The notes below the pieces were generated by a model. It worked only from the letters and a program-made list of their open reading frames with translations, was not told the origin of the DNA and searched no databases. Made by a program: the position numbers and the translations under genes. Below, piece by piece: positions 1 to 43,204 of a stretch of DNA of 54,494 bases. The stretch lies in contig JAFZBS010000005.1 in assembly GCA_017561575.1 (NCBI GenBank), forward strand, positions 1 to 54,494. Reading direction: 5' to 3'. The DNA is from Candidatus Saccharimonadota bacterium. Its GTDB lineage: Bacteria; Patescibacteriota; Saccharimonadia; Saccharimonadales; Saccharimonadaceae. Each line of letters starts with the position of its first letter. Within the stretch, counting starts at the first letter, position 1.

Positions 1-701
1 ACTTTGCCAGTATAAGTATCGGCAGCTTGAGTATTGGAGATATAGGCAGCATAAGTAGTAGTTAGTTTAGCACCTAGTGTTTGATCCGTAGCGGATGAAA
101 AGGTGGCGACCTTTTCATAATCATTTGGCACTGCATGATAGCTATCAAAGCTATTAGTAATAGTAAGATTGGCTGGATTATAAGCAGTACTATCAGTTAC
201 TTTGGCTAGTTTCATTGCCCATTGTGAAGTACTACCTGAAGTAGCAGTACCGGTAGGAATAGTAGCATTAGTATTAGCACCAAGCATATTGGTAACGCCA
301 TATTCATCACCAGAGAATCCTACCGCATAAATGGCAAAACCCGAAGCATCATTACAAAAAGCGGTTAAAGTAGTTTGTCCTATACCATTTGGATAATAAT
401 CATTACCACCAGAATAAATACCATTAAGAAGTGTAGCGTTATGAGCCGAATCTACTACGGCAGTGAGCGAACAAGAAGATGGAACTGTAATAGTAGCAGT
501 AGAAACGACAGAATCATCGTCAGCAAAGACGTTTGTGGGTAAATTTGCTAATACCATTGCAGCAATAGTTGTAATACCTACTAATGCAATACAACTACTA
601 AACATAATATTATGTTTTTGAATCTTGAGATTATGACTTTTCCGCTCTCTATTAAAAAGCGTTTTATGTTTTCCAAAAACAATATTATGTTTATCGTGCA
701 T
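1..701 (-). CDS. FISUMP-family surface protein, 3' part cut by window edge
   Basis: Open reading frame from the ATG at 701 to the left edge with no stop, about 233 codons. The N-terminus has a basic cytosolic start with KHNI-type repeats, one hydrophobic signal/anchor segment (about residues 33-55) and then a secreted region nearly identical to the N-terminal ~230 residues of the next two genes (motifs CSLTAVVD, LLNGIYSGGNDYYPNG, QWAMKLAKVTDS). By homology the missing part should hold the InlB-type repeat and the C-terminal FISUMP domain. It is the third member, in transcription order, of a tandem family. The start is set by the promoter at 710-738, which leaves almost no leader. Function unknown; surface adhesion or recognition is inferred. 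Confidence 0.85.
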   Translation of the reverse strand, partial: MHDKHNIVFGKHKTLFNRERKSHNLKIQKHNIMFSSCIALVGITTIAAMVLANLPTNVFADDDSVVSTATITVPSSCSLTAVVDSAHNATLLNGIYSGGNDYYPNGIGQTTLTAFCNDASGFAIYAVGFSGDEYGVTNMLGANTNATIPTGTATSGSTSQWAMKLAKVTDSTAYNPANLTITNSFDSYHAVPNDYEKVATFSSATDQTLGAKLTTTYAAYISNTQAADTYTGK

Positions 702-738: not shown

Positions 739-753
739 TGGCGAGAAGAAACC

Positions 754-772
754 GCCTAGCTGCCAGCTAGGC
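754..772. repeat. Palindrome across the FISUMP stop codon
   Basis: GCCTAGCTG-C-CAGCTAGGC: 9-bp arms with a 1-nt centre, overlapping the stop codon (756-758). There is no T-run after it on the minus strand, so it is not an ordinary terminator. It lies 10 bp beyond the end of the hypervariable stretch, where some DGR targets carry a required hairpin. Confidence 0.7.
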
Positions 773-2789
773 ACCTAATAGAGTTGCCGTTGTACTTATT
801 GTTATATTCGGTACCTGGGTTGACACTGGAGCTATACAGGAACATGCCGTACGAACCGAGGTTGTTATTACTCGCAGTAGACGACCAATAGCTCCCGCTA
901 CTGCCTCTATTATTGACCGACGAATTAATGGCGTAGCCGGAGTAGAGGAAATTGTTAGGATAGCTTCTGAGGGCAATGGAAGCGTTAGTGCCTTCTGAAT
1001 CGCCTGTGTAGTATGGAGCGGTGCTACTGTCGTAGTTAGCTGGGTTAGTACCGCCATTAATACCAGTGACAACGAGTGCCCAGAAGTCATTAGTAGCTTC
1101 TCTAGTTTTATTGCCACCACGCGGTAGTTTCCAGCCAGCTGGGCAAAGCGAAGTGTTTACAGTTTCACTAGTTTTACCATCCGCATCAGTAGCAGTAGGG
1201 CTAGTATAGTATATAGTGTTAGCTAGAGCTGCAGACCAAGTATAATAGTTGCCATAGGAGTAAACGTTTTGGTTTCTTTCAGTCATATTAGCCACAGTAG
1301 TATTTGGGTTAGTAGTACTATCCGTGTTGGTATTATCATTACGGTATCTTGGCATACGATAACCAGCATAATTGGTTTGGCTAATATCTATAGTGGCAGT
1401 ACCACTCTGGGTGCCAGCATAGTAGATGGAATTAGCGGTAGTAGGTTCTGTAGCGCTACCAGAAGAAGCGACGAAGTTGGCTGTTTCTGGCGTAGCTAAG
1501 CCAATAAAGTTGCCATAGGTGGTAGACTTACCATAACCTTGTGAGAGGGCTTCATTAGTGGCACCAGCTGTAGCATCATAGTCTAGCCTTAAGTTCTCAA
1601 TCATCCAACATTTGCCATCGGCAAGTTTTGCTACGGCATAGGTATTATTATCACGTTGGTCAGTAAGAGCAGTGACGGCACCTTGGGCTAGGCTACTACA
1701 ACCGTTCCAGTTTTGGAGACTACCAGCTGATGGTACCCAAACAGCATAGAGTGAGAGACCTTCAGTGCTATACTGTCCTGCGGTGAAAGTAATGGTAGCA
1801 TTAGGACCATAAATGTGATAGCCAGCATTAGCACCAGTACCGTTGCCGCTAGCATCATTAGCGCCAAGTTCCCAGTCATACTTATCGCTCCAGCCAGCGA
1901 AACCATAACCTGAACGTTTGAAATTAGAAGCCCATAGTACAGCCGAGGTAGCAGTTGAGCCAATGATTTGGTCTCCCATAGTGTCTTCTACTAGATTACC
2001 AGCATTAGGAAAATAGCCAATCCTATTAGCGCCAGTAGTGTGTGCAATATTTGGTGCATTTGTAGCCGGGTGAACCAATGTGTATTTGACCTTACCCGTA
2101 TAAGTATCTGCCGTCTGAGTGCCGGATATGTAAGCTGCATAAGTAGTAGTGAGTTTGGAACCTAGAGTTTGGTCTGTGGCGGATGAGAAGTTGGCTACTT
2201 TGGTGTATGTATTTGGCACTGCATGATAGCTATCAAAGCTATTAGTAATAGTAAGATTGGCTGGATTATAAGCAGTACTATCCGTTACTTTAGCTAGCTT
2301 CATTGCCCACTGTGAAGTGCTACCTGAAGTAGCAGTACCAGTAGGAATAGTAGCGCTAGTATTATTGCCTAGCATATCAGTGGCACCATATTCATCACCA
2401 GAAAAACCTACTGCATAAATAGCAAAGCCTGAAGCATCATTACAAAAGGCAGTTAATGTAGTCTGCCCTATACCATTTGGATAATAATCATTACCACCAG
2501 AATAAATACCATTAAGAAGTGTAGCGTTATGAGCTGTGTCTACTACGGCGGTGAGTGAGCAGGCTGATGGGATGGTGATGGTGGTCGTGGAGATGGTGGA
2601 ATCATTTTCAGCAAAGACATTTGCGGGGACATTGGCTAATACGATAGCGGCAATGGCAGTGATGCTTATTAATGCAAAACAGCTGCCAATCACAATATTA
2701 TGTTTTTGAATTACAAGATTATGATTTTTGCGCTCTCTGTTAAAAAGCGTTTTATGTTCCCTTAAAACAATATTATGTTTATCGTGCAT
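756..2789 (-). CDS. FISUMP-domain surface protein with hypervariable C-terminus
   Basis: 677 aa. A basic N-terminus with KHNIV repeats and one hydrophobic segment (about 35-58) suggests Sec export with a membrane anchor. A beta-rich domain follows (about 60-245), then an InlB/Listeria-Bacteroides-type repeat (about 265-355; GYGFAGWSDKYDW, LYAVW) and a C-terminal FISUMP domain (about 370-677; DGKCWMIENLRLDYD, LCPAGWKLPRGG, YWSSTA, SIRCLAGS). FISUMP is the Fibrobacter succinogenes major paralogous domain. Residues 619-669 differ sharply from the neighbouring paralogue at scattered positions set in an invariant frame, as in C-type-lectin-like ligand-binding loops. The ATG at 2789 follows a consensus promoter by 8 nt. 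Probably a surface adhesin or receptor; ligand unknown. Confidence 0.88.
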   Translation of the reverse strand: MHDKHNIVLREHKTLFNRERKNHNLVIQKHNIVIGSCFALISITAIAAIVLANVPANVFAENDSTISTTTITIPSACSLTAVVDTAHNATLLNGIYSGGNDYYPNGIGQTTLTAFCNDASGFAIYAVGFSGDEYGATDMLGNNTSATIPTGTATSGSTSQWAMKLAKVTDSTAYNPANLTITNSFDSYHAVPNTYTKVANFSSATDQTLGSKLTTTYAAYISGTQTADTYTGKVKYTLVHPATNAPNIAHTTGANRIGYFPNAGNLVEDTMGDQIIGSTATSAVLWASNFKRSGYGFAGWSDKYDWELGANDASGNGTGANAGYHIYGPNATITFTAGQYSTEGLSLYAVWVPSAGSLQNWNGCSSLAQGAVTALTDQRDNNTYAVAKLADGKCWMIENLRLDYDATAGATNEALSQGYGKSTTYGNFIGLATPETANFVASSGSATEPTTANSIYYAGTQSGTATIDISQTNYAGYRMPRYRNDNTNTDSTTNPNTTVANMTERNQNVYSYGNYYTWSAALANTIYYTSPTATDADGKTSETVNTSLCPAGWKLPRGGNKTREATNDFWALVVTGINGGTNPANYDSSTAPYYTGDSEGTNASIALRSYPNNFLYSGYAINSSVNNRGSSGSYWSSTASNNNLGSYGMFLYSSSVNPGTEYNNKYNGNSIRCLAGS
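783..935 (-). other. Candidate DGR-type variable region, copy 1
   Basis: 51 codons of the 756-2789 gene (residues 619-669). Aligned with 2871-3020 they show 24 differing codons and a one-codon indel. Twenty-two of the 24 can be explained by changes at adenines of a common template, for example AAT/TTT, AAT/TAT, AGC/TAC (twice), AAC/TAC (twice), TTC/TAC, TAT/GGT and ATG/GCG. The codons between (TCG, GTC, GGG, TGG, CTC, CCA, ACC and others) are identical even at third positions. Only two differences are plain third-base T/C changes. Confidence 0.65.
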
Positions 2790-2797
2790 ATACTTAT

Positions 2798-2826
2798 ATA
2801 TTAATCTTTGCTTTGGGGTTTGTCAA
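2798..2826 (-). promoter_or_regulatory. Consensus leaderless promoter of the second FISUMP gene
   Basis: Minus strand: TTGACA (2821-2826), 17-bp spacer, TAATAT (2798-2803), then 8 nt to the ATG at 2789. Transcription is expected to begin at or within about 2 nt of the start codon. Confidence 0.75.
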
Positions 2827-2841
2827 TGGCAAGAGGAAACC

Positions 2842-2860
2842 GCCTAGCTGCCAGCTAGAC
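2842..2860. repeat. Palindrome across the FISUMP stop codon, second copy
   Basis: CTAGCTG-C-CAGCTAG with one outer mismatch and a further G-C pair, on the stop codon at 2844-2846. It has the same position relative to the variable region as the copy at 754-772. Confidence 0.65.
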
Positions 2861-4769
2861 ACCTAATAGAGTAGCCGTTGTACTTACCGTTGTAATTGGT
2901 ATCTGGGTAGACAACGGATCTACCCAGGTACGCGCGGTACGAACGGAGGTCAGTATTCGCAGTAGACGACCAATAGTACCCGTAGCTGCCTCTATAAAAG
3001 ACCGACGAATCATTGGCGCTGCCGGAGTAGAGGAAATTGTTAGGGTAAGCTCTCAAGGCAATGGAAGCATTAGTGCCTTCTGGGTCGCCTGTATAGTATG
3101 GTCGAGTATTGCTATCATAGTTAGCTGGGTTGGTGCCGTTATTGATGCCGGTGACAATCAGTGACCAAAAGTCATTAGTAGCTTCTCTAGATTTATCGCC
3201 ACCACGTGGCAGTTTCCAGCCGGCTGGACAAAGTGAGGTATTTACTGTTTCACTGGTTTTGCCATCAGCATCGGTGGCGGTAGGACTATCATAATATATA
3301 GTGTTAGCTAGAGCTGCAGACCAAGTATAATAGTTACCATAGGAGTAAATGTTTTGGTCTGCATCAGTCATATTGGCTACATTAGTATTTGGATTGGTAG
3401 TACTATCTGTGTTGGTATTATCATTACGGTATCTTGGCATACGATAAGCAGGATAATCAGTGGTATTGATATTAATGGTGGCAGTACCACTTTGAGTACC
3501 ACTATAATATATACTGTTAGCAGTAGTATAAGTAGTGAAGTTTATTGTTTCTGGCTTAGCTAAGCCAATAAAGTTGCCATAGGTAGTAGATTTACCAAAG
3601 CCCTGGGATAGCGATTCGGTAAAGTTAGCATCATAGTCTAATCTTAAGTTCTCTATCATCCAGCATTTACCATCCGCGAGTTTTGCTACGGCATAGGTAT
3701 CATTGTCACGTTGGTCAGTAAGAGCAGTGACATCACCAATGTTCATAGAATTGCAACCATTCCAGTTTTGAAGATTACCTGCCGATGGGACCCAGACAGC
3801 ATAAAGTGAGAGACCTTCAGTGCTATATTGTCCAGCAGTAAAGGTAATAGTAGCGTTAGGACCATAAATGTGATAGCCGGCATTAGCACCAGTACCATTG
3901 CCGCTAGCATCATTAGCGCCAAGGACCCAGTTGTATTTATCAGACCAGCCAGCAAAACCATAGCCTTCACGTTTGAAATTAGAGGCCCAGAGTTCAGCCG
4001 AGGTAGCACTATTTGAAACGCTTTGGTCCCCCATAGAATCCGTCACACTACTAGGCCCTGGAGAATAGCAGATTTTACCACCAGCACAAGCCACTGGCTG
4101 AGCCGGAGTTTCTGGTAGAGCACTAGCTGGGTGCACCATGGTATATTTCACCTTCCCGGTATAAGTATCCGCGGCCTGATTAGCTGAGACAAAAGCGGCA
4201 TAGGTAGCAGTGAGTTTAGAGCCTAGAGTCTGATCAGTAGACGAAGAAAAGCTAGCTACTTTAGTATAGTCACTTGGTACTACATGGTAATTATCAAAAC
4301 TATTGGTGATGGTGAGGTTAGAAGGATTATAGGCAGTGCTATCAGTCACTTTAGCTAGTTTCATCGCCCACTGCGAGTTATCTCCAGAAGTAGCAGTACC
4401 GGTAGGAATGGTGGCACCAGAAGTACCTATCATAGTATTATCACCATAGGTATCACCAGAAAAGCCCACTGCATATATAGCAAAGCCTGCATTGTCATTA
4501 CATACAGCTTTGATAGTAGTACTACCTATACCATTAGGATAATTGTCATTACCAGAATAAATACCATTAAGTAAAGTAGCGGTGTGCTCAGCATCAACAG
4601 TCGCAGACAATGAGCAAGAAGATGATACATTTACGGTTGCTGTGGCGGTAGATGAAGATTCTGCCGCAACGCCTGGAACAATATTAGACAATAATAAGCC
4701 AGTCACGATGGTTATACCAACAAGACTAAGGCTGCCACAAAAGATAACTCTATAGATTTTATTATGCAT
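2844..4769 (-). CDS. FISUMP-domain surface protein with hypervariable C-terminus, first gene of the array
   Basis: 641 aa from the ATG at 4769. An in-frame TTG at 4793 would add 8 residues, but it lies inside the promoter, so it was not used. The layout matches the next gene: hydrophobic export segment (about 5-30), beta-rich domain, InlB-type repeat (about 240-330) and FISUMP domain (about 345-641; DGKCWMIENLRLDYD, LCPAGWKLPRGG). It lacks the KHNI-repeat N-terminus of its two neighbours. Residues 584-633 form the hypervariable stretch. Outside that stretch, differences from the paralogue are largely silent. Likely a cell-surface binding protein; the ligand cannot be told from sequence. Confidence 0.88.
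   Translation of the reverse strand: MHNKIYRVIFCGSLSLVGITIVTGLLLSNIVPGVAAESSSTATATVNVSSSCSLSATVDAEHTATLLNGIYSGNDNYPNGIGSTTIKAVCNDNAGFAIYAVGFSGDTYGDNTMIGTSGATIPTGTATSGDNSQWAMKLAKVTDSTAYNPSNLTITNSFDNYHVVPSDYTKVASFSSSTDQTLGSKLTATYAAFVSANQAADTYTGKVKYTMVHPASALPETPAQPVACAGGKICYSPGPSSVTDSMGDQSVSNSATSAELWASNFKREGYGFAGWSDKYNWVLGANDASGNGTGANAGYHIYGPNATITFTAGQYSTEGLSLYAVWVPSAGNLQNWNGCNSMNIGDVTALTDQRDNDTYAVAKLADGKCWMIENLRLDYDANFTESLSQGFGKSTTYGNFIGLAKPETINFTTYTTANSIYYSGTQSGTATININTTDYPAYRMPRYRNDNTNTDSTTNPNTNVANMTDADQNIYSYGNYYTWSAALANTIYYDSPTATDADGKTSETVNTSLCPAGWKLPRGGDKSREATNDFWSLIVTGINNGTNPANYDSNTRPYYTGDPEGTNASIALRAYPNNFLYSGSANDSSVFYRGSYGYYWSSTANTDLRSYRAYLGRSVVYPDTNYNGKYNGYSIRCLAGS
2871..3020 (-). other. 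Candidate DGR-type variable region, copy 2
   Basis: 50 codons (residues 584-633) corresponding to 783-935. Variable codons are mostly of the NNC/NNT kind expected from mutated AAC/AAT codons (TTT, TAT, TAC, GAC, GGT, GTT, GAT). The fixed frame between them is base-for-base the same as in the other copy. Confidence 0.65.
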
Positions 4770-4777
4770 ATACTTAT

Positions 4778-4806
4778 ATATTATCCCCGCCAAAGAATAA
4801 AGTCAA
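4778..4806 (-). promoter_or_regulatory. Leaderless promoter of the first FISUMP gene
   Basis: Minus strand: TTGACT (4801-4806), 17-bp spacer, TAATAT (4778-4783), then 8 nt to the ATG at 4769. The spacer sequence differs from the other two copies but the elements and spacing are kept. Confidence 0.7.
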
Positions 4807-4814
4807 GCAATTTA

Positions 4815-6881
4815 TTATTCCCACACCGGCAAATCTTCCGGAAACGGGTCTAAATCACTCTCACCAAAATCATCATCGTTAAATACATCGTCGCCATAAT
4901 CCTTAAATCCATCTCCATCCTCATCACGATACCCCACCGAACCATACGGATTATATCCTAGCTCCGTCAAAAATCTTGACGGCATATTATAATTCCGACT
5001 ACCAAACGAATATCGCGACATCGCATACGTCAAAAACAACCTCCGCATTGCCCGCGTCATCCCTACATACATTAGTCGCCGTTCTTCTTCCAAATCGCTC
5101 TCATTATCATACGCCCTAGACCCCGGGAAAAGCCCCTCCTCGAGCCCCACCACAAACACCACTGGAAATTCCAGTCCTTTCGCCGCATGTAAAGTCATCA
5201 AAGTCACCGCATTTTTTCCAGTCACCTCATCTGCCGACGACATCAAACTCGCATCCGCCAGAAAATCATCCAAACTCGCAAATTCCGCTGCGTTCGAAGC
5301 CAATACTTCCAAGTTTCGCATTCTCTCTTCTGCCGCCGGCGTCCCGTCATCCGTCAATCTTTGAAAATCAAAATACGCCACCACTTTTCGCACCACTTCA
5401 CCAGGATTTACCACATTTTCACCCCTATTATATGCAACACTTGTTGCATTTCTTATTTCTTCCAAAAATCGTGTAAGTCTCACCAAACCATTGCGCGCCT
5501 TTACTGCATTTAACACATCCGGAAGGTCCGGATTAAGCAGCGGGTTAGCATCGTTCATCGCATCCATTGCCATTAATAGCTTATTTAACGACACTTCGCC
5601 AATTCCAGACAGTACATTCTTTACTACCCTCTCAAAACTCACCTTATCGCGCCCATTTACAATCAGCCTCAAAATCGCCAGCACATCCTTCACTTCCTTA
5701 CGATCATAAAATCTCACCCCGCCCACAATTTTGTATGGCACATGCCCCGCCATAAACGCTTTTTCAAACGCATACGATTGCGCATTTGTCCGATAAAGCA
5801 CCGCAAAATCCGCATAATCGGGGTATTCCTTTTGCATCCTTAGAATCGTTCGCACCACAAATTGCGCTTCCTTTTCCTCATCCGCCAAACTCTCAATCTC
5901 TACCGGCGCACCTTTCCCAGCTTCTGTGAACAAAACCTTATCCGTCCGCGTCTTATTGTTATTGATAATCTTTTGCGACGCCTCAAGGATATTTCCCGTC
6001 GAACGATAATTTTGCTCCAACTTCACCACTTTTGCTCCCGGAAAATCCCGTTCAAAATTCAAAATATTCGTAAAATCCGCCCCTCGCCACGAATAAATCG
6101 ACTGCCAATCATCCCCCACCACACAAATGTTGCGTTTTTCATTCACAAGTAGTTTCACCAAATGATATTGCACTGCGTTCGTATCCTGATACTCATCAAT
6201 TAGAATATGTTCAAACTTTTTTTGCCACTTCTCCCGCACTGCCAAGTTATTAGAAAATAGTTCCAAAGTTTTTAAAAGCAAGTCATCAAAATCAAGTGCT
6301 CCCGCTTTTTCCTTTTCTTTTTCATAAGCCTCAAAAACTTTTGCGATGTCGCGTTGGTTCGGATAAAGCGCTTTCGCTGCATATTCTTCCGGCCCTCGAC
6401 CTTGATTTTTTTCGCTCGAAATTATCGATTGAATCGATTTCGGCTTCAGAGCCTTTTTCTCTGAAAGTCTCAAATTCTTCATAATACGCTTAATTAATGA
6501 AATTTGGTCATCCGTATCATAGATCACAAAATCCCGGTCAAGTCCCGCCGCCTCCGCTTCAATTCTCAATATTTTTACGCAAATCGAATGAAACGTCCCC
6601 ATATATGGCATGAAAGAACGCGGAGGCTCTTGCGACCCGTCCCGAGAATGAGCTTGCAAAAGATTCCATAGTCTTCCCCGCATCTCTTTCGCCGCCTTAT
6701 TCGTAAACGTCACAGCGAGAATGTTTGATGGCTTCACTCCACGTGCCAGCAAATTCGCAATCCGATGCGTCAAAGTCTTAGTCTTGCCCGACCCCGCACC
6801 AGCCAGTATCAACACCGGCCCTTCAAGACATTCTACCGCCTCTTTTTGCCGCTCGTTTAAGCCTTCAAAAATCTCATCCAT
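4815..6881 (-). CDS. UvrD/PcrA-type superfamily 1 DNA helicase
   Basis: 688 aa, 3'-5' SF1A helicase used in DNA repair and in clearing replication forks. Visible motifs in order: Walker A GAGSGKT (about 28-34), Ia TFTNKAAKEM, II DEYQDTN (about 229), III GDDWQSIYSWRGA, IV QNYRST, V TLHAAKGLEFPVVF and VI RRLMYVGMTRA. Length is normal for PcrA/UvrD; the C-terminal tail is acidic (DEDGDGFKDYGDD). The promoter TATAAT at 6888-6893 lies 6 nt before the ATG, so the mRNA should be leaderless. PcrA, UvrD and Rep cannot be separated with certainty from sequence alone. Confidence 0.95.
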   Translation of the reverse strand: MDEIFEGLNERQKEAVECLEGPVLILAGAGSGKTKTLTHRIANLLARGVKPSNILAVTFTNKAAKEMRGRLWNLLQAHSRDGSQEPPRSFMPYMGTFHSICVKILRIEAEAAGLDRDFVIYDTDDQISLIKRIMKNLRLSEKKALKPKSIQSIISSEKNQGRGPEEYAAKALYPNQRDIAKVFEAYEKEKEKAGALDFDDLLLKTLELFSNNLAVREKWQKKFEHILIDEYQDTNAVQYHLVKLLVNEKRNICVVGDDWQSIYSWRGADFTNILNFERDFPGAKVVKLEQNYRSTGNILEASQKIINNNKTRTDKVLFTEAGKGAPVEIESLADEEKEAQFVVRTILRMQKEYPDYADFAVLYRTNAQSYAFEKAFMAGHVPYKIVGGVRFYDRKEVKDVLAILRLIVNGRDKVSFERVVKNVLSGIGEVSLNKLLMAMDAMNDANPLLNPDLPDVLNAVKARNGLVRLTRFLEEIRNATSVAYNRGENVVNPGEVVRKVVAYFDFQRLTDDGTPAAEERMRNLEVLASNAAEFASLDDFLADASLMSSADEVTGKNAVTLMTLHAAKGLEFPVVFVVGLEEGLFPGSRAYDNESDLEEERRLMYVGMTRAMRRLFLTYAMSRYSFGSRNYNMPSRFLTELGYNPYGSVGYRDEDGDGFKDYGDDVFNDDDFGESDLDPFPEDLPVWE

Positions 6882-6887
6882 TACACC

Positions 6888-6893
6888 ATTATA
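6888..6893 (-). promoter_or_regulatory. Leaderless -10 element of the helicase gene
   Basis: TATAAT preceded by TTTTTGC, ending 6 nt before the ATG at 6881. Confidence 0.65.
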
Positions 6894-6907
6894 GCAAAAA
6901 ACTAAGT

Positions 6908-8458
6908 TTAAATACCAGTAAGTGGTTCAATATTTGCCCCAAGGTGACGAAGTCTTGCTGCGAAATCTTGATAACCACGTTTAATTGGGTAAATATTACG
7001 CAAAATTGAAGTCCCTGGCGCCGCCAACATGCCAATTAGCACCACTACCGCCGGACGAAGCGCCTGCGGCGCCACCATTTCAGCCGGTCGCCAATTCGTC
7101 GGCCCCTCAATATACACGCGGTGTGCATCAAGAAGCTCAATCTTAGCATTTAAATTCGAAAGTTCCGTAATGTAAATCGCCCGATTTTCAAACACCCAGT
7201 CGTGAATCAAAGTCCTACCCTTACTTACTGCCGCAATCACCGAGAAAAATGGCAAGTTGTCAATGTTTAGTCCCGGAAATGGCATCGGGTGAATCTTATC
7301 TATCGGCGCCACTAAATCTGACTTGTGAATTGTCAAATCCACCAACCTCGTCCGCTCATTATTAGACAAATATTCCGCCGACCGGTCAATTTTTGCATTC
7401 ATACTTTTTAGCACTTCAAGCTCAATTTCCAAAAATTCAATCGGCGCACGCCTCACTACAATCTCAGACTTAGTCACGAGTGCCGCCGCAATAAAACTCA
7501 TCGCCTCAATCGGGTCTTCTGACACATTGTACTCCACATCCGCATCAATCATTGCCTTGCCATGTACCACTAACCTCGTAGTGCCAATACCGCTAATTTT
7601 TACACCTAATCTTTCCAGGAAAAAACAAACATCCTGCACCATATAATTCGGCGAAGCCCCTACAATCGTAGTCTTGCCACTAGAGAGTGCCGCTGCCATC
7701 AATACATTTTCGGTCACCGTATCGCCACGTTCAGTTAGTACAATATAGCGATCCGTATATTTATGCAAAGTCTCTTGCCTCACCGTCACTTCATAAAAAC
7801 CACTATTACATTCCGCATCCACATCAAGCCCAAATGATTTCAAAGCCTGAATATGCGGCTCTACCGTCCGCGTCCCAAGTGAACAACCACCTGCATATGG
7901 AATTCTAAAACGCGAATATTTGTGAAGAAGTGGACCTAAAAACATGATAATTGAACGCGTTTTTCTCGCCGCCTCAACATCCATTTCATCTAACTTTAAT
8001 TCACGTGGTGATATAATTTCTAGGTCACGATGGCGGTTGCGCCAATAGCATTTTACGCCAATTGACTCCAAAACTTCAATAATTCTAAAAACTTCTTCAA
8101 TCCTCGCCACGCGTTTAAGAAGCGTCTTGCCTGAGTTTAAAAGTGCCGCACAAAGTAGCCCTACGGCCGCATTTTTAGACGTATTTACAGTAATTTCACC
8201 ATGTAGCTCCTGTCCACCACGAATCCGATAACTTTGCGAAGCAAGGTCATTTATAGAGAGAATTTGTGCCCCAAATGTCTCAGAAAGCTTTTTTATCATT
8301 TCAAGCGAAATATTTTGCCCACCTTTTTCGATGCGATGAATTGCCGACTGGCTTGTACCAACTTTTTCTGCTAATTCACCCTGCGTCCAGCCTTTTTCTG
8401 TCCGCATTTGTTCAATGGTTTCACCAATCACCTCGTTATAAGTCTTTGCCTTTTTCAT
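6908..8458 (-). CDS. murA: HTH-MurA fusion: UDP-N-acetylglucosamine 1-carboxyvinyltransferase
   Basis: 516 aa. MurA transfers enolpyruvate from PEP to UDP-GlcNAc, the first committed step of peptidoglycan synthesis. Residues 1-70 form an XRE-type helix-turn-helix (GWTQGELAEKVGTSQSAIHR), and about 78-516 are the EPSP-synthase-like fold. The catalytic cysteine is Cys192 in GGCSLGTR, so a wild-type loop sensitive to fosfomycin is expected. The active-site lysine is Lys95 in TSKNAA, and the C-terminal RGYQDFAARLRHLGA arginine motif is present. A usual MurA is about 420 aa, so the HTH is extra. Its own leaderless promoter (TATAAT 8465-8470) diverges from that of pgk. The HTH may bind DNA to autoregulate; this is inference. 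Confidence 0.93.
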   Translation of the reverse strand: MKKAKTYNEVIGETIEQMRTEKGWTQGELAEKVGTSQSAIHRIEKGGQNISLEMIKKLSETFGAQILSINDLASQSYRIRGGQELHGEITVNTSKNAAVGLLCAALLNSGKTLLKRVARIEEVFRIIEVLESIGVKCYWRNRHRDLEIISPRELKLDEMDVEAARKTRSIIMFLGPLLHKYSRFRIPYAGGCSLGTRTVEPHIQALKSFGLDVDAECNSGFYEVTVRQETLHKYTDRYIVLTERGDTVTENVLMAAALSSGKTTIVGASPNYMVQDVCFFLERLGVKISGIGTTRLVVHGKAMIDADVEYNVSEDPIEAMSFIAAALVTKSEIVVRRAPIEFLEIELEVLKSMNAKIDRSAEYLSNNERTRLVDLTIHKSDLVAPIDKIHPMPFPGLNIDNLPFFSVIAAVSKGRTLIHDWVFENRAIYITELSNLNAKIELLDAHRVYIEGPTNWRPAEMVAPQALRPAVVVLIGMLAAPGTSILRNIYPIKRGYQDFAARLRHLGANIEPLTGI

Positions 8459-8464
8459 GCAGTA

Positions 8465-8514
8465 ATTATATCACAGGGTGCATATTTTTGTAAAGACTTT
8501 AGATGTGCTATAAT
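8465..8514. promoter_or_regulatory. Divergent leaderless promoters of murA and pgk
   Basis: Minus-strand TATAAT at 8465-8470 ends 6 nt before the murA ATG (8458). Plus-strand TATAAT at 8509-8514, in the extended form TGCTATAAT, ends 6 nt before the pgk ATG (8521). Only 62 bp separate the two start codons. Confidence 0.7.
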
Positions 8515-8520
8515 TAACCT

Positions 8521-9573
8521 ATGAAGACAATCAAGGATATCAACGTACGAAACAAAACAGCCTTAGTCCGCGTCGACTATAATGTACCTTTAGAAAACGG
8601 CAAAATCACGAGCGACCTACGCATTCGCGCCAGTCTCCCAACTTTACAATATCTCCGTGAAAAAGGCGCCAAGAAAATCATCTTACTTTCACACCTCGGT
8701 CGCCCCGAAGGCAGAGACAAATCGTTGTCGCTAAAGCCAGTCGCAAGTGCCCTAAATGATCTTATTGGCAACGTCACTTTTATCGATGACGTTTCCGGTC
8801 CAGACGTTGAATCCGCTGCCAAAAAGACCAAAAATGGCGGCATTTTACTCCTTGAAAATCTCCGCTTTTCTGCTGGCGAAGAAAAAAACTCTCCGGACTA
8901 CATTCGCGAAATAATAGACTCTGTTAATCCTGATTTTTACGTCCAAGATGGCTTTGCGGTCGTTCACCGCGCTCACGCTTCTACCGACGCAGTCAAAGAA
9001 TATCTCCCAGTTTACGCTGGTCTCCTAGTTGAAAAAGAAGTTGAAAACCTCTCAAAGGTCATCAGCCATCCCGCCAAACCATTTTTGATGATTATCGGTG
9101 GCTCCAAGGTCGAAGACAAACAGCCCTTAATTGACCGTTTTGCACCTAAAGCCGACCAAATCGTCGTCGGTGGCAAAATTGCCGCCGATGGTTACAAATC
9201 AACTCACAAAAACGTCTATGTCGCCGAAGATTTCGATGAAGACGCCGAAGGCCACAAACTTGATACCGGCCCAGTCTCTACTGGCAAAATCGCAAACTAC
9301 ATCACCGACGCCAAAACTATTGTCTGGAACGGTTTACTCGGCAAAGCCGAAGATCCGGCTTATGCTACCTCTTCTACCATTGTCGCCGAATTAATGGGCG
9401 AAAAAGAAGACGCCACTACTATTATTTGCGGTGGCGACACTGCTGGTTTTGTTGAAAACCTCACCGCCGAGCACAAAAGCCTCAAATATTCTCTTCTCTC
9501 CACCGGTGGTGGCGCCGCACTTGAATATTTACTCGGCAAAAAACTCCCTGGTCTCGAAGCCATAGAGCAATAA
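8521..9573 (+). CDS. pgk: Phosphoglycerate kinase, short form
   Basis: 350 aa; converts 1,3-bisphosphoglycerate and ADP to 3-phosphoglycerate and ATP in glycolysis. Substrate-side motifs are clear: RVDYNVP (17-23), LLSHLGRPEG, ENLRF and HRAHAS. The C-terminal nucleotide domain has GGSKVEDK, VWNG and CGGDTAGF, ending STGGGAALEYLLGKKLPGLEAI. Typical bacterial PGKs are 390-400 aa; the missing ~40 residues fall between the GGSKV region and the WNG motif. The usual GPMGVFE after WN reads GLLGKAED. The gene ends 1 bp before the end of the convergent pyk gene, so the two 3' ends meet back to back. Confidence 0.93.
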   Translation: MKTIKDINVRNKTALVRVDYNVPLENGKITSDLRIRASLPTLQYLREKGAKKIILLSHLGRPEGRDKSLSLKPVASALNDLIGNVTFIDDVSGPDVESAAKKTKNGGILLLENLRFSAGEEKNSPDYIREIIDSVNPDFYVQDGFAVVHRAHASTDAVKEYLPVYAGLLVEKEVENLSKVISHPAKPFLMIIGGSKVEDKQPLIDRFAPKADQIVVGGKIAADGYKSTHKNVYVAEDFDEDAEGHKLDTGPVSTGKIANYITDAKTIVWNGLLGKAEDPAYATSSTIVAELMGEKEDATTIICGGDTAGFVENLTAEHKSLKYSLLSTGGGAALEYLLGKKLPGLEAIEQ

Positions 9574-39100: not shown

Positions 39101-42100
39101 TTATTTCAAAATACACCGTACTGCATTACCATAGAAAGGATCCACTGTCCCATAAGAATAAACATGCCCAGCATCAGAATGGAAAGTACTAGCGGGATTA
39201 TAACGATCAGTCGTATCGACGGAAGTCGTCCAATAAAGAATAAAATCATAAAATGAACCCGCCAAGTAATACTTTGAAAGTGGCAATGATAGCTTAACCT
39301 GAACGCTATTTGGATCATCAGCAGACATTGACTCGCCGACCATCACGCTGGTCGAACAAGCCGAACCCTTAATCGCAGTACAAAGATAATAAAAAGTCGA
39401 ATATCCTGGCATCCCCCAATTGGCTGGACATAAATCACCCAAAACTACACCTGTACCACCAGTAGGAGTACCACAATAACTACCAGCCGTCGCCGCACAA
39501 TAATTATAATTAACACCTCCCCTGTTTTGCCCCAAACCGAAGGCACCCATAGAATACCCAGATGGAACTCTTACATGCATTGGAACAAAGGCTTCATTAA
39601 CCTGACTGGTATTAATAAATGGTATATTCCTATCTTTTTGAGTTGTCCAAGTCTCTCCCGTCCATGAATTTTTCAACGTTGCGAGCGATGTGCTATCAAT
39701 ATTAGTATTACTCGTCGTAAGACCGTTCATCACAGTAGAATTGCTAATATCAAGAGCTAGGCTATCTAGCATCCAACAATTTCCATCTGCTAATTGTTGT
39801 ATCCAGTAAATCCTATTGTCGCGCGTATCGTATGCCGGTCTGGCCGTCGTAGTACAGCTTGAAGATGTCACATTCTGCATCGTAAGCGATACGGACTGTC
39901 CAGTAAGCGTAATTGTAGCATTACCAGTCACAGTATAACCAGTATTTTGGTAGTTTTGATTTACGAATGAACCCGCAGTAGCAGACCAAGAAGAGAATGC
40001 GTATCTCGTACCATAATTACCATAGATATGATAGGTCCCCGCTCGGGCTTTTGTTGTCTGATTATTAGTGTATGCCACGCCGTCAAACACAATGTTACTA
40101 GCATTTGATGTCTTAAATGTGATTGTATAACCCGGGTCAAGAATACACCTTACGGAATAACCATAATAGCGAGGGTGATTAGTATTCGCCGGAAAGACGC
40201 CACTGGACCTATTAAATAGAATATACATATAATTCGGTTGGTTTCTCGTTGAAGACAAGAAATAACCGTACTGGCCGTAACTACCAGAACCGTTGTTGAA
40301 GTTGCCTGATAGAGGAACGGACAAAGTATTACGATATAGTGCATCATCACTATTTATGGTAGAAGTTGTATAAAGAGCAGAATACTCACCAGCACTGCCA
40401 CCCGTAGGCATTCTCCACCCAGCCGGACATACGTCATAATAATTATCACCATCAGGTGTCCCACCACTCGAAGAACCATCACCAAAGCAATAGTAGCCCA
40501 CGCTAGCAGCACAATAGTTATAATAGACACCAATTTTACCCTGTCCTAATCCATAAGCCCCCTCATTTGTGCCAGTATAATTCTCTGCGGAAGATGGCCT
40601 TAAAGTGACACTCTTATAGGTAGCACTAGAAAGTGGCCGAGAATAGCTATATGAAGATGTCCAGTTTGCATTAGTAGCCGTCGGAAAACGATCCGAAGTA
40701 GTACCACCACCATTCTTAAAGTAATTCAACGCATCAGCATATAGATTGGTATTGCTAGTAGACAACGAATTCACGATAGACGAATCAGTAAGATCTAGTG
40801 CAAGGTTGTCTAGCATCCAACAGTTACCATCTGGTAGTTGCTGCACCCAGTATACAGAATTATCACGATTATCATAGACTGGGCGAGCGGTAGTAGTACA
40901 GTTAGATGTAGATAAGTTCTGCATTGCAGTATTTACATATTGTCCAGTTAGGGTGATAGTAGCATCGCCAGTGACGGTGAAGGCAGTATTTTGGTAATTT
41001 TGGTTTTCAAAGGTACCAGCCGTAGTAGACCAGGACGAGAATGCATACCTTGTACCATAATTGCCATAAATATGGAACTTTTTGCCAGTCGCTTCGCCTG
41101 CAGATATCGTAAGCGTCTGTCCATCTGTATAAGTTACGCCGTTAAAGACAATTCCAGTAGCATTATTGGTTCTAAAGGTGATCGTATAAATTGGCATTAA
41201 ACACCTAACGCTTAAGCCGTAATTTAAATGTTCAAAACTATTAGGCGAAACACTATACGCAGATACATGAAGATCATACGCATCCATAACATTGCGCCCA
41301 GTAGAAGACCAGAAAGAACCATTGTTACCGCGATTAGCAGCCATACCACCATTAAAGCGACCTGATAATGGCGTAGATAAAACATCACGAAAAGTAGCAT
41401 TATTACTATTAATTGCAGCATTTGTATAGAGGGCATTGTACTCGCCAGAGCTACCACCAGTAGGCATACGCCAGCCAGCTGGACAGACGTCATAAATACT
41501 ATTGCTATAAGTATTACCAGCCGAAGTTCCATTACCAAAACAATAGTAACCTACGCTAGCAGCACAGTAATTATAATATGCGCCAATCTTGCCTTGTCCG
41601 AAACCATAAGCCCCCTTAAGAAGACTTGTGGAACTTGTTGCATCAGACGGCATCGCCACACTATTTTTTTCATTCATATAAGTAAGTGGCTGAGAATAAC
41701 TGTCAATAGAGCCGAATGTACCGTAGGCGGCTGTTGGATAGCGATCAGAAGTTGTGCCACTACCATCTTTGAATTTGGCGAGTGAGGTAGAGTCTAGGTT
41801 GGTATTAGTATTAGACAAACCATCTACAATAGTAGAGTCCGTAAGATCTAATGCCATATTGTCTAGCATCCAGCACTTACCATCCGGTAGTTTCTGTACC
41901 CAGTAGACAGTATTGTCGCGAGTATCGTAAACTGGTCTCGCAGTAGTAGTACAGTTTGCAGCAGACAAGTTTTGAATCGCAACAGTAACTTGTTGGCTAG
42001 CTAGAGTAATTGTAGCACTACCAGTAACAGTATAGGCTGTATTCTGGTAGTTGGAGTTTTCTAGTGTACCAGCCGTAATAGTCCAGGAAGAGAAAGCATA

Positions 42101-43204
42101 TTTTGTAGCATAATTACCATAAATATGATATGGGCTAGTTGCCTCACTCGCCCTCACCGTCCTAGTCTGATTGTTGGTGTAAGCTACGCCATCAAAGACT
42201 ATATTGGTAACATTGGCACCGGTCACAAAGGTCAACGTATAAATGCTGTCCCACATTGCATAAAGTGTAGGATTATTAGCAACAGTTTGATCTATGCCGA
42301 AGTTTAAATTTGTACCATCACCATCAGGATTATAAATAGTACCATCACATGTGTCGTAGCCATTAGCGGTAGTAACTGTTCCAAAACACCAACCTAGAAA
42401 ACTATAGCCTGTACGAACTGGGACGAGATTACTGAGTGCGATATTAGTAGCTGAAGCATCACCAGATTGATTAGCTGGCATATTGGTGACGGTATCAGTA
42501 GTGTTTTTATCGTATGTAATAGTATAAGTAATCGTATTTGCTACGAATTCTAGAATGAAGGTATCATTAGCATAAGTACCAGAAGGACTATTATAGTCTG
42601 CCCTAAAGCCTAATCCTATAGTGTAATCATCGGCATTGTCTACACCATTGCTACTGTTAGCAGAAGATGTGGCTCTAAGCGTAGCAGCATTCACACTAGT
42701 AGGAGCAGGATAATAGGTAGTAGTGTTAGCAGCAGAATTATAATAACTTGGTATATAGCCCCATCTATTATTCAATGCTTGACCCGCTGCATCACTAGAT
42801 GAGAAGATTGCTTCTGTCGTAGAGCTTGATATAGTACTAATATTATGGCTGTTTCCATCCGTGAGCGTGGTATTGCTACCTGTAGAAGTCATAGTCAATG
42901 TATAGCCAGTATAATTATTAGTACTAATACTAAAGGCTGCTTTCTCACTACTAGATGATGTAGCAAAAGTACCAGTAGGAGAACCCATAGCGAGACTAAC
43001 CGAAGCTACTGGATTAGTGCTAGTAAAAGTAAGTGTAGAAGCAGTAGGCGTGCCAGCAGTAGCGTTAGCGGTGTCTGTAATATTATATAAAGGTACAAAT
43101 ACGGCAAATAATAATGCCACTAAACAAAGACAAGCCAAAAAAGAACAAAACCTTAAGACATTTTGATTAAATCTAAGCCAGACTTTTGTTTTTCCAATAA
43201 ACAC
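39101..43204 (-). CDS. Giant surface protein with three FISUMP domains
   Basis: 1367 aa, GTG start at 43204 with GGAGG upstream and TATAAT at 43228-43233. Export segment about 18-40 (CSFLACLCLVALLFAVFVPL). Residues 45-250 are a Thr/Ser-rich beta region, 252-325 an InlB-type repeat (RTGYSFLGW, LYAMW). Then a unit repeated three times: a beta module (FHIYGNYGTRYAFSSW, QNTAFTVTGDATITLTGQ) followed by a FISUMP domain (DGKCWMLDNMALDLTDS, YYNYCAASVGYYCFG, VCPAGWRMPTGG, SVRCL). Cysteines are conserved between units and may be paired. Related to the array at the left edge but not close. Probably a large adhesin; convergent with tRNA-Cys. Confidence 0.9.
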   Translation of the reverse strand: MFIGKTKVWLRFNQNVLRFCSFLACLCLVALLFAVFVPLYNITDTANATAGTPTASTLTFTSTNPVASVSLAMGSPTGTFATSSSSEKAAFSISTNNYTGYTLTMTSTGSNTTLTDGNSHNISTISSSTTEAIFSSSDAAGQALNNRWGYIPSYYNSAANTTTYYPAPTSVNAATLRATSSANSSNGVDNADDYTIGLGFRADYNSPSGTYANDTFILEFVANTITYTITYDKNTTDTVTNMPANQSGDASATNIALSNLVPVRTGYSFLGWCFGTVTTANGYDTCDGTIYNPDGDGTNLNFGIDQTVANNPTLYAMWDSIYTLTFVTGANVTNIVFDGVAYTNNQTRTVRASEATSPYHIYGNYATKYAFSSWTITAGTLENSNYQNTAYTVTGSATITLASQQVTVAIQNLSAANCTTTARPVYDTRDNTVYWVQKLPDGKCWMLDNMALDLTDSTIVDGLSNTNTNLDSTSLAKFKDGSGTTSDRYPTAAYGTFGSIDSYSQPLTYMNEKNSVAMPSDATSSTSLLKGAYGFGQGKIGAYYNYCAASVGYYCFGNGTSAGNTYSNSIYDVCPAGWRMPTGGSSGEYNALYTNAAINSNNATFRDVLSTPLSGRFNGGMAANRGNNGSFWSSTGRNVMDAYDLHVSAYSVSPNSFEHLNYGLSVRCLMPIYTITFRTNNATGIVFNGVTYTDGQTLTISAGEATGKKFHIYGNYGTRYAFSSWSTTAGTFENQNYQNTAFTVTGDATITLTGQYVNTAMQNLSTSNCTTTARPVYDNRDNSVYWVQQLPDGNCWMLDNLALDLTDSSIVNSLSTSNTNLYADALNYFKNGGGTTSDRFPTATNANWTSSYSYSRPLSSATYKSVTLRPSSAENYTGTNEGAYGLGQGKIGVYYNYCAASVGYYCFGDGSSSGGTPDGDNYYDVCPAGWRMPTGGSAGEYSALYTTSTINSDDALYRNTLSVPLSGNFNNGSGSYGQYGYFLSSTRNQPNYMYILFNRSSGVFPANTNHPRYYGYSVRCILDPGYTITFKTSNASNIVFDGVAYTNNQTTKARAGTYHIYGNYGTRYAFSSWSATAGSFVNQNYQNTGYTVTGNATITLTGQSVSLTMQNVTSSSCTTTARPAYDTRDNRIYWIQQLADGNCWMLDSLALDISNSTVMNGLTTSNTNIDSTSLATLKNSWTGETWTTQKDRNIPFINTSQVNEAFVPMHVRVPSGYSMGAFGLGQNRGGVNYNYCAATAGSYCGTPTGGTGVVLGDLCPANWGMPGYSTFYYLCTAIKGSACSTSVMVGESMSADDPNSVQVKLSLPLSKYYLAGSFYDFILYWTTSVDTTDRYNPASTFHSDAGHVYSYGTVDPFYGNAVRCILK

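Follow-up and report, generated by a model that had tools for sequence, protein, structure and literature searches.

Two neighbouring genes for putative surface proteins in a Candidatus Saccharimonadota bacterium very probably end in variable repeats (VRs) of a diversity-generating retroelement (DGR), whose reverse transcriptase (RT) and an Avd-like partner would rewrite the 3′ ends of FISUMP genes by way of a template repeat (TR) RNA. At the level of sequence, three things are established for this genome: adenine-directed variation, a homogenised framework, and a complete DGR whose FISUMP targets are both local and remote. In the proposed mechanism, the DGR RT and the Avd-like partner would copy the template-repeat RNA with misincorporation at adenines, and the mutated cDNA would then overwrite FISUMP surface genes at their 3′ ends, in cis as well as in trans. 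The window analysed here is the whole stretch of 54,494 nucleotides that carries the two genes; it starts at base 1 of contig C1.

FISUMP genes and variable repeats of the window

The FISUMP genes at the left end of the window, and the repeats at their 3′ ends, are as follows.

3..701, (−): third FISUMP-family gene, an ORF open at the left edge; the contig end cuts it before the 3′ (variable) part
749..950, (−): variable repeat 1, 3′ end of FISUMP gene 1, crossing the stop codon; aligned with three paralogous repeats and with the TRs of contig C3 and of a sister genome
756..2789, (−): FISUMP surface gene 1, putative exported protein of 677 aa with a C-terminal FISUMP domain
2837..3035, (−): variable repeat 2, 3′ end of FISUMP gene 2; aligned like repeat 1
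2844..4769, (−): FISUMP surface gene 2, with ATG at 4769; a longer TTG frame reaches 4793

Both window genes exceed the curated TIGR02145 cut-off of 41.65 bits and therefore belong to the FISUMP domain family: gene 1 scores 54.8 bits over residues 502–675 and gene 2 scores 54.5 bits, with a PF09603 match to gene 2 (28.1 bits) lying under its cut-off. The N-terminal part of the third gene is close to gene 1. The same 3′ region is present in two further FISUMP genes of the genome, located on contigs C6 and C7, and the framework common to the four repeats is TCGTCGGTC..AGAGGC..GGG..TATTGGTCGTCTACTGCG. The first-pass annotation had placed the variable stretches at 783–935 and 2871–3020. Their position, reading frame and one-codon indel are correct, and the number of differing codons is 23 of 50 with the best gap, not 24. 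The location of the repeats also holds, but their extent does not: they reach from about 749 to 950 and from about 2837 to 3035, because the template homology crosses the stop codon.

FISUMP genes are numerous in this reduced 623-kb genome (contigs C1–C8), with 33 matched stretches, several of them at contig ends. The window also encodes a three-module FISUMP protein of 1367 aa (39101–43204, −) with VR-like ends at 40145–40330 and 41201–41386. When an L148-type TR is used as a guide, 41 of 52 A columns and 63 of 118 non-A columns vary in its repeats; since the silent sites have drifted as well, these repeats look old rather than fresh.

Variation directed to template adenines

Within the window pair, codon positions 1, 2 and 3 differ 16, 12 and 5 times, respectively (50 codons, best gap). 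The TR of the sister genome G037 was taken as the template; it is not built from the four repeats, but was found by its likeness to them. Of the 35 columns that vary in the window pair, 28 are adenines in the template, and 28 of 62 A columns vary compared with 7 of 111 non-A columns (Fisher p = 2.5e-9), in agreement with the earlier proposal that the changes fit the adenines of one template. When all four repeats are considered (C1 twice, C6 and C7), 45 of the 62 A columns vary, compared with 15 of the 111 others (odds ratio 17, p = 6e-15). The varying template-A columns of the four repeats contain A 81, G 51, T 32 and C 16 times. The window pattern is real and far beyond chance; with the complete DGR and its FISUMP targets in the same genome, it bears out the initial suggestion of DGR-like variable regions at FISUMP 3′ ends.

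A second line of evidence comes from the codon positions outside and inside the repeats. Third positions of the window pair differ in 34% of 200 upstream codons versus 10% in the repeat (p = 9e-5), as expected from the earlier remark that changes are mostly silent upstream and seldom silent in the repeat, whereas first and second positions together differ at 10% upstream and 22% in the repeat. All six pairs of repeats behave similarly: third positions differ at 23–34% in the 200 upstream codons and 5–14% in the repeat, and positions 1 and 2 at 6–11% and 22–34%, respectively. The third-position deficit has p < 0.05 in five of the six pairs and p = 0.054 in the sixth. Few third-position differences, combined with many at positions 1 and 2, are what repeated overwriting of a framework from one template would leave.

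A DGR cassette on another contig

The first-pass annotation stated that the window contains neither an RT nor a template, and the searches agree; both are found solely on another contig of the same genome. RVT_1 has a single match in the genome, on contig C3, where the surrounding cassette (coordinates of locus L007) consists of the following features.

3667–5544, +: FISUMP target gene
5853 to about 6060, +: TR
6041–7258, −: RT, 405 aa
7255–8061, −: accessory gene, directly upstream of the RT

Judged from its sequence, the C3 cassette is a complete DGR, comprising a DGR-type RT, an Avd-like accessory protein, a TR and a FISUMP target. The best solved structure for the RT profile is the BPP-1 DGR RT (8ub7, E = 4e-31), followed by a group II maturase (4.8e-7), and the RT motifs IGN..SQ and YVDD are invariant. 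The lack of any RT or template in the genome had been named beforehand as the result that would speak against a DGR; both are present, and all 22 mismatches between the C3 TR and its local VR over the first 192 nt are at TR adenines, with 15 changes to T, 6 to G and 1 to C. The match between the two extends to the stop codon and beyond. The C3 DGR also has a target at a distance: ~19 kb away, at the left contig end, another FISUMP gene carries a VR in which TR adenines account for 24 of the 27 mismatches.

The final codons of the C3 RT gene run antisense to the 3′ end common to TR and VR (GGTTTGTGCTTTTCCAG; L007 6030–6065), so that the RT coding sequence and the template overlap. Considered as an antisense spacer, the 3′ coding end of the RT has a synonymous conservation of 0.49–0.56 at its very end versus about 0.4, a slight rise.

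Origin of the window repeats

The earlier proposal to look for a DGR RT with a matching TR succeeded in part: the RT and another TR are on C3, and the TR for the window repeats is absent from the assembly. No TR matching the window repeats was found in the 623-kb assembly with the inferred template as the query and E values up to 1; this template has an A at each varying column of the four repeats that holds an A. The leader that precedes the TR on C3 has no other occurrence in the assembly. A search for the second template (TR2) in 174 genus genomes and viral contigs returned only TRs of relatives. The assembly is 79.7% complete, and contigs C1 (at the left edge of the window), C3 and C7 each end within FISUMP genes; some contigs of relatives likewise end at these repeats.

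The sister genome G037 contains a non-coding copy 89.8% identical to the inferred template, beside an RT gene. The matching TR, the RT, the accessory gene and a FISUMP target are located between murA and pgk in G037, and uvrD is also present. The window has the corresponding neighbourhood next to its FISUMP genes.

4815..9573, mixed strands: uvrD (−), HTH-murA-like gene (−) and pgk (+), a conserved neighbourhood marker

A second G037 cassette is located near ksgA, as is the C3 cassette. Given the assembly gaps, the contig ends in FISUMP genes and the synteny with G037, a second cassette would lie in the unassembled part of the genome, with TR2 probably located past one of the FISUMP genes that are truncated by a contig end. 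The murA-like protein of the window (6908–8458, −) has, by eye, an N-terminal XRE-type helix–turn–helix, and an HTH–murA fusion is also encoded in G037 (L066 5294–6886). Near the right end of contig C4 is a FISUMP 3′ end (L181 1361–1552, −) that shares 75% identity with the C3 TR and departs from it at 22 non-adenine positions. Only 27 of its 49 mismatches are at A; it was not assigned as a C3 TR target and may belong to a third template.

The main rival to this picture is that the window repeats are relics of a DGR whose TR was lost by this strain and that they no longer change. The missing TR would be explained in this way, and relatives do carry differing TR sets, but we consider the relic reading unlikely: the low third-position divergence of the framework relative to the flanking codons argues for recent copying from a common template, the reading frames are intact, and an assembly about 80% complete, with C1, C3 and C7 ending inside FISUMP genes, leaves room for the TR. 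Under the preferred reading, in which a DGR rewrites the window repeats, the mutagenic process would still be active.

It is scarcely credible that the C3 RT writes the window repeats from the C3 TR. The two share a genome and a FISUMP family, and the C3 TR does have one remote VR; yet this TR has 69, 67 and 76 mismatches to the repeats C1b, C6 and C7, respectively, over half of them non-A (37–44 non-adenine differences in each), which refutes this origin for the C3 TR. Action of the C3 RT on a second, unassembled TR is possible. An account without any retroelement, in which the paralogues simply diverged under diversifying selection, whether or not gene conversion contributed, is highly improbable: divergence and recombination are to be expected in so large a FISUMP family, but the adenines of another species' template predict the variable columns, the C3 pair differs exclusively at TR adenines, and selection at the protein level is blind to the template base.

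Cassette layout in Saccharibacteria

RT relatives are present in 57 of 99 genus genomes and in 39 of the 63 good ones. Those with names are Candidatus Saccharibacteria, mostly from the ruminant gut; one of them is Candidatus Nanosyncoccus alces. TR/VR pairs were sought in 66 Saccharibacteria RT loci, with the criterion that at least 80% of mismatches are at A, and were found in 53; 1195 of the 1263 mismatches are at A, a percentage helped by the cut-off. FISUMP-type 3′ ends were recognised by reading in nearly all of the identified targets. In 50 of the 53 loci, the TR runs antisense to the RT, and in 48 it lies directly 3′ of it. The exceptions include L080 (1790–2009, 4312–4531), where the TR precedes the accessory gene on the same strand as the RT, L112, with the TR upstream of the RT, and L118, with the TR 1.5 kb downstream. 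In the more distant relatives L134, L136 and L149–L153, TR and RT are co-directional.

A TWTAAT box is found at most 420 nt upstream of the TR in 33 of 46 loci, versus 39% of shuffles. An intrinsic terminator follows the TR in 13 of 46 loci versus 7% in shuffles, which is suggestive only.

Structured leader of the template

The leader between the box and the TR consists of helix P1, a C-M-C-Y-T motif, hairpins P2 and P3 and the return strand of P1; it is apparently an undescribed, covarying three-way-junction RNA. Among 16 leaders, 18 of 19 pairs are changed on both sides, and the covariation score is 0.783; shuffles give 0.283 (sd 0.027), and sliding gives no more than 0.24. P1 was chosen for complementarity while the stretches were being cut, which makes its score circular in part; P2 and P3 were identified later, from the sequence alignment. 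A search with a covariance model built from the 16 leaders is a stronger test than this score. The model matched held-out loci at the expected place, including four without a previously recognised TR (L105, L106, L107 and L087). In 99 whole genomes, 20 of its 23 matches lie 205–482 nt 3′ of a DGR RT on the opposite strand, some of these being seed or held-out loci. The G037 leaders score under the threshold of the model, and some cassettes are thus missed. The first automatic leader descriptor, which recovered 79% of real and 31% of shuffled leaders at score 20, was too loose and was replaced by the covariance model. A comparison of three loci with Rfam revealed no such leader family.

The simplest guess is that the leader recruits the RT–accessory complex. 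A broader model, which we regard as evenly balanced between right and wrong, is that Nanosyncoccus-type Saccharibacteria make the template RNA as a unit of its own, convergent with the RT, that the 5′ three-way-junction leader takes the place of recruitment by the 3′ spacer of BPP-1, and that one or more cassettes per genome rewrite scattered FISUMP genes.

Accessory protein

A structural model of the accessory protein was made for the G037 relative (pLDDT 87). The predicted structure comprises an HTH, an alpha/beta part and a C-terminal four-helix bundle. In the model, this bundle resembles BPP-1 Avd (4dwl/8ub7; Z = 13.7, rmsd 1.8 over 101 residues) and also 2gsc (Z = 16.3). Helical bundles reach high Z by chance, so the Avd-like assignment rests also on the position of the gene. 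Pfam HTH_3 is found in 7 of 24 accessory relatives, and the C3 protein has no HTH. A PDB sequence search with the accessory protein gave weak matches only. MutS-like accessory proteins (MSL) occur in DGRs (PMC10053308), and it is a guess that the middle part of the accessory protein is an MSL.

Comparison with known systems

Remote targets are shared with the DGRs of Treponema denticola, in which one TR reportedly serves distant target genes; the target family and the lineage differ. The DGR of BPP-1 (brt, Avd, TR and the VR of mtd) has the same RT family, an accessory domain of the Avd fold and adenine-directed transfer from TR to VR at the 3′ end of the target. In BPP-1, the TR is co-directional and flanked by avd and brt; on its 3′ side, a structured spacer recruits RT–Avd and primes the cDNA (PMC12875486). 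Unlike this arrangement, with the TR sense to the RT and upstream of it, the Saccharibacteria TR is antisense and 3′ of the RT, with a structured leader 5′ of the TR, often with its own −10-like box. The Saccharibacteria accessory protein also differs in its added parts (an HTH in some, alpha/beta), and there are remote targets.

The first-pass annotation regarded DGR control of FISUMP proteins as new, but Fib_succ_major was already listed among DGR targets by Ye 2014 (PMC4159848), together with DUF1566, in human microbiomes. FISUMP domain proteins as variable proteins are thus common to both sets of systems; those of Ye 2014 are from human microbiomes, and that source does not name Saccharibacteria or TM7 and is not known to describe a remote FISUMP set. 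The DGRs of Patescibacteria/CPR are known as DGR clade 2 of Roux 2021 (PMC8144416), whose targets mostly lack recognisable domains and whose remote targets were undetected by the method used; remote targets are known in other organisms (PMC8144416). The present systems are likewise cellular Patescibacteria DGRs and differ in their FISUMP-domain targets and in one remote VR. An opposite orientation of RT and TR is shared with cassette pattern G5 of Yan 2019 (PMC6642488), in which the RT is inverted; the canonical pattern is over 20 times as common as G5. In contrast to G5, the inversion is close to fixation in a single lineage here and goes together with a conserved RNA leader.

FISUMP targets, CPR DGRs, remote targets and a rare inverted RT are therefore already known; the inverted template with a structured leader looks new, as a lineage-specific DGR variant. 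No report of Saccharibacteria FISUMP DGRs or of such a leader was found in the open literature, a search that left Wu 2018 and Paul 2017 outside its scope.

Biological implications

The leader has no Rfam match and lies on the opposite side of the template from the recruiting element of the best-studied DGR, which makes it a concrete starting point for asking how the template is located and primed by RT and Avd. It can also serve as a search model for DGR templates without a visible repeat pair, having matched downstream of the RT in four such loci.

Saccharibacteria live on other bacteria. Host cells or phages may be recognised by a binding surface built from the variable residues. The lectin-like (C-type lectin) fold suggested in the first-pass annotation finds no confirmation in the model of the FISUMP variable domain, which has a pLDDT of 51, and a PDB sequence search with this domain gave no match. 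To the question of how Saccharibacteria recognise their hosts, a mutator aimed at an exported FISUMP family, some of whose genes lie at a distance from the cassette, suggests an answer that can be tested, in which surface proteins are rewritten at set residues. Such a DGR would let the episymbiont keep changing the tips of its surface proteins.
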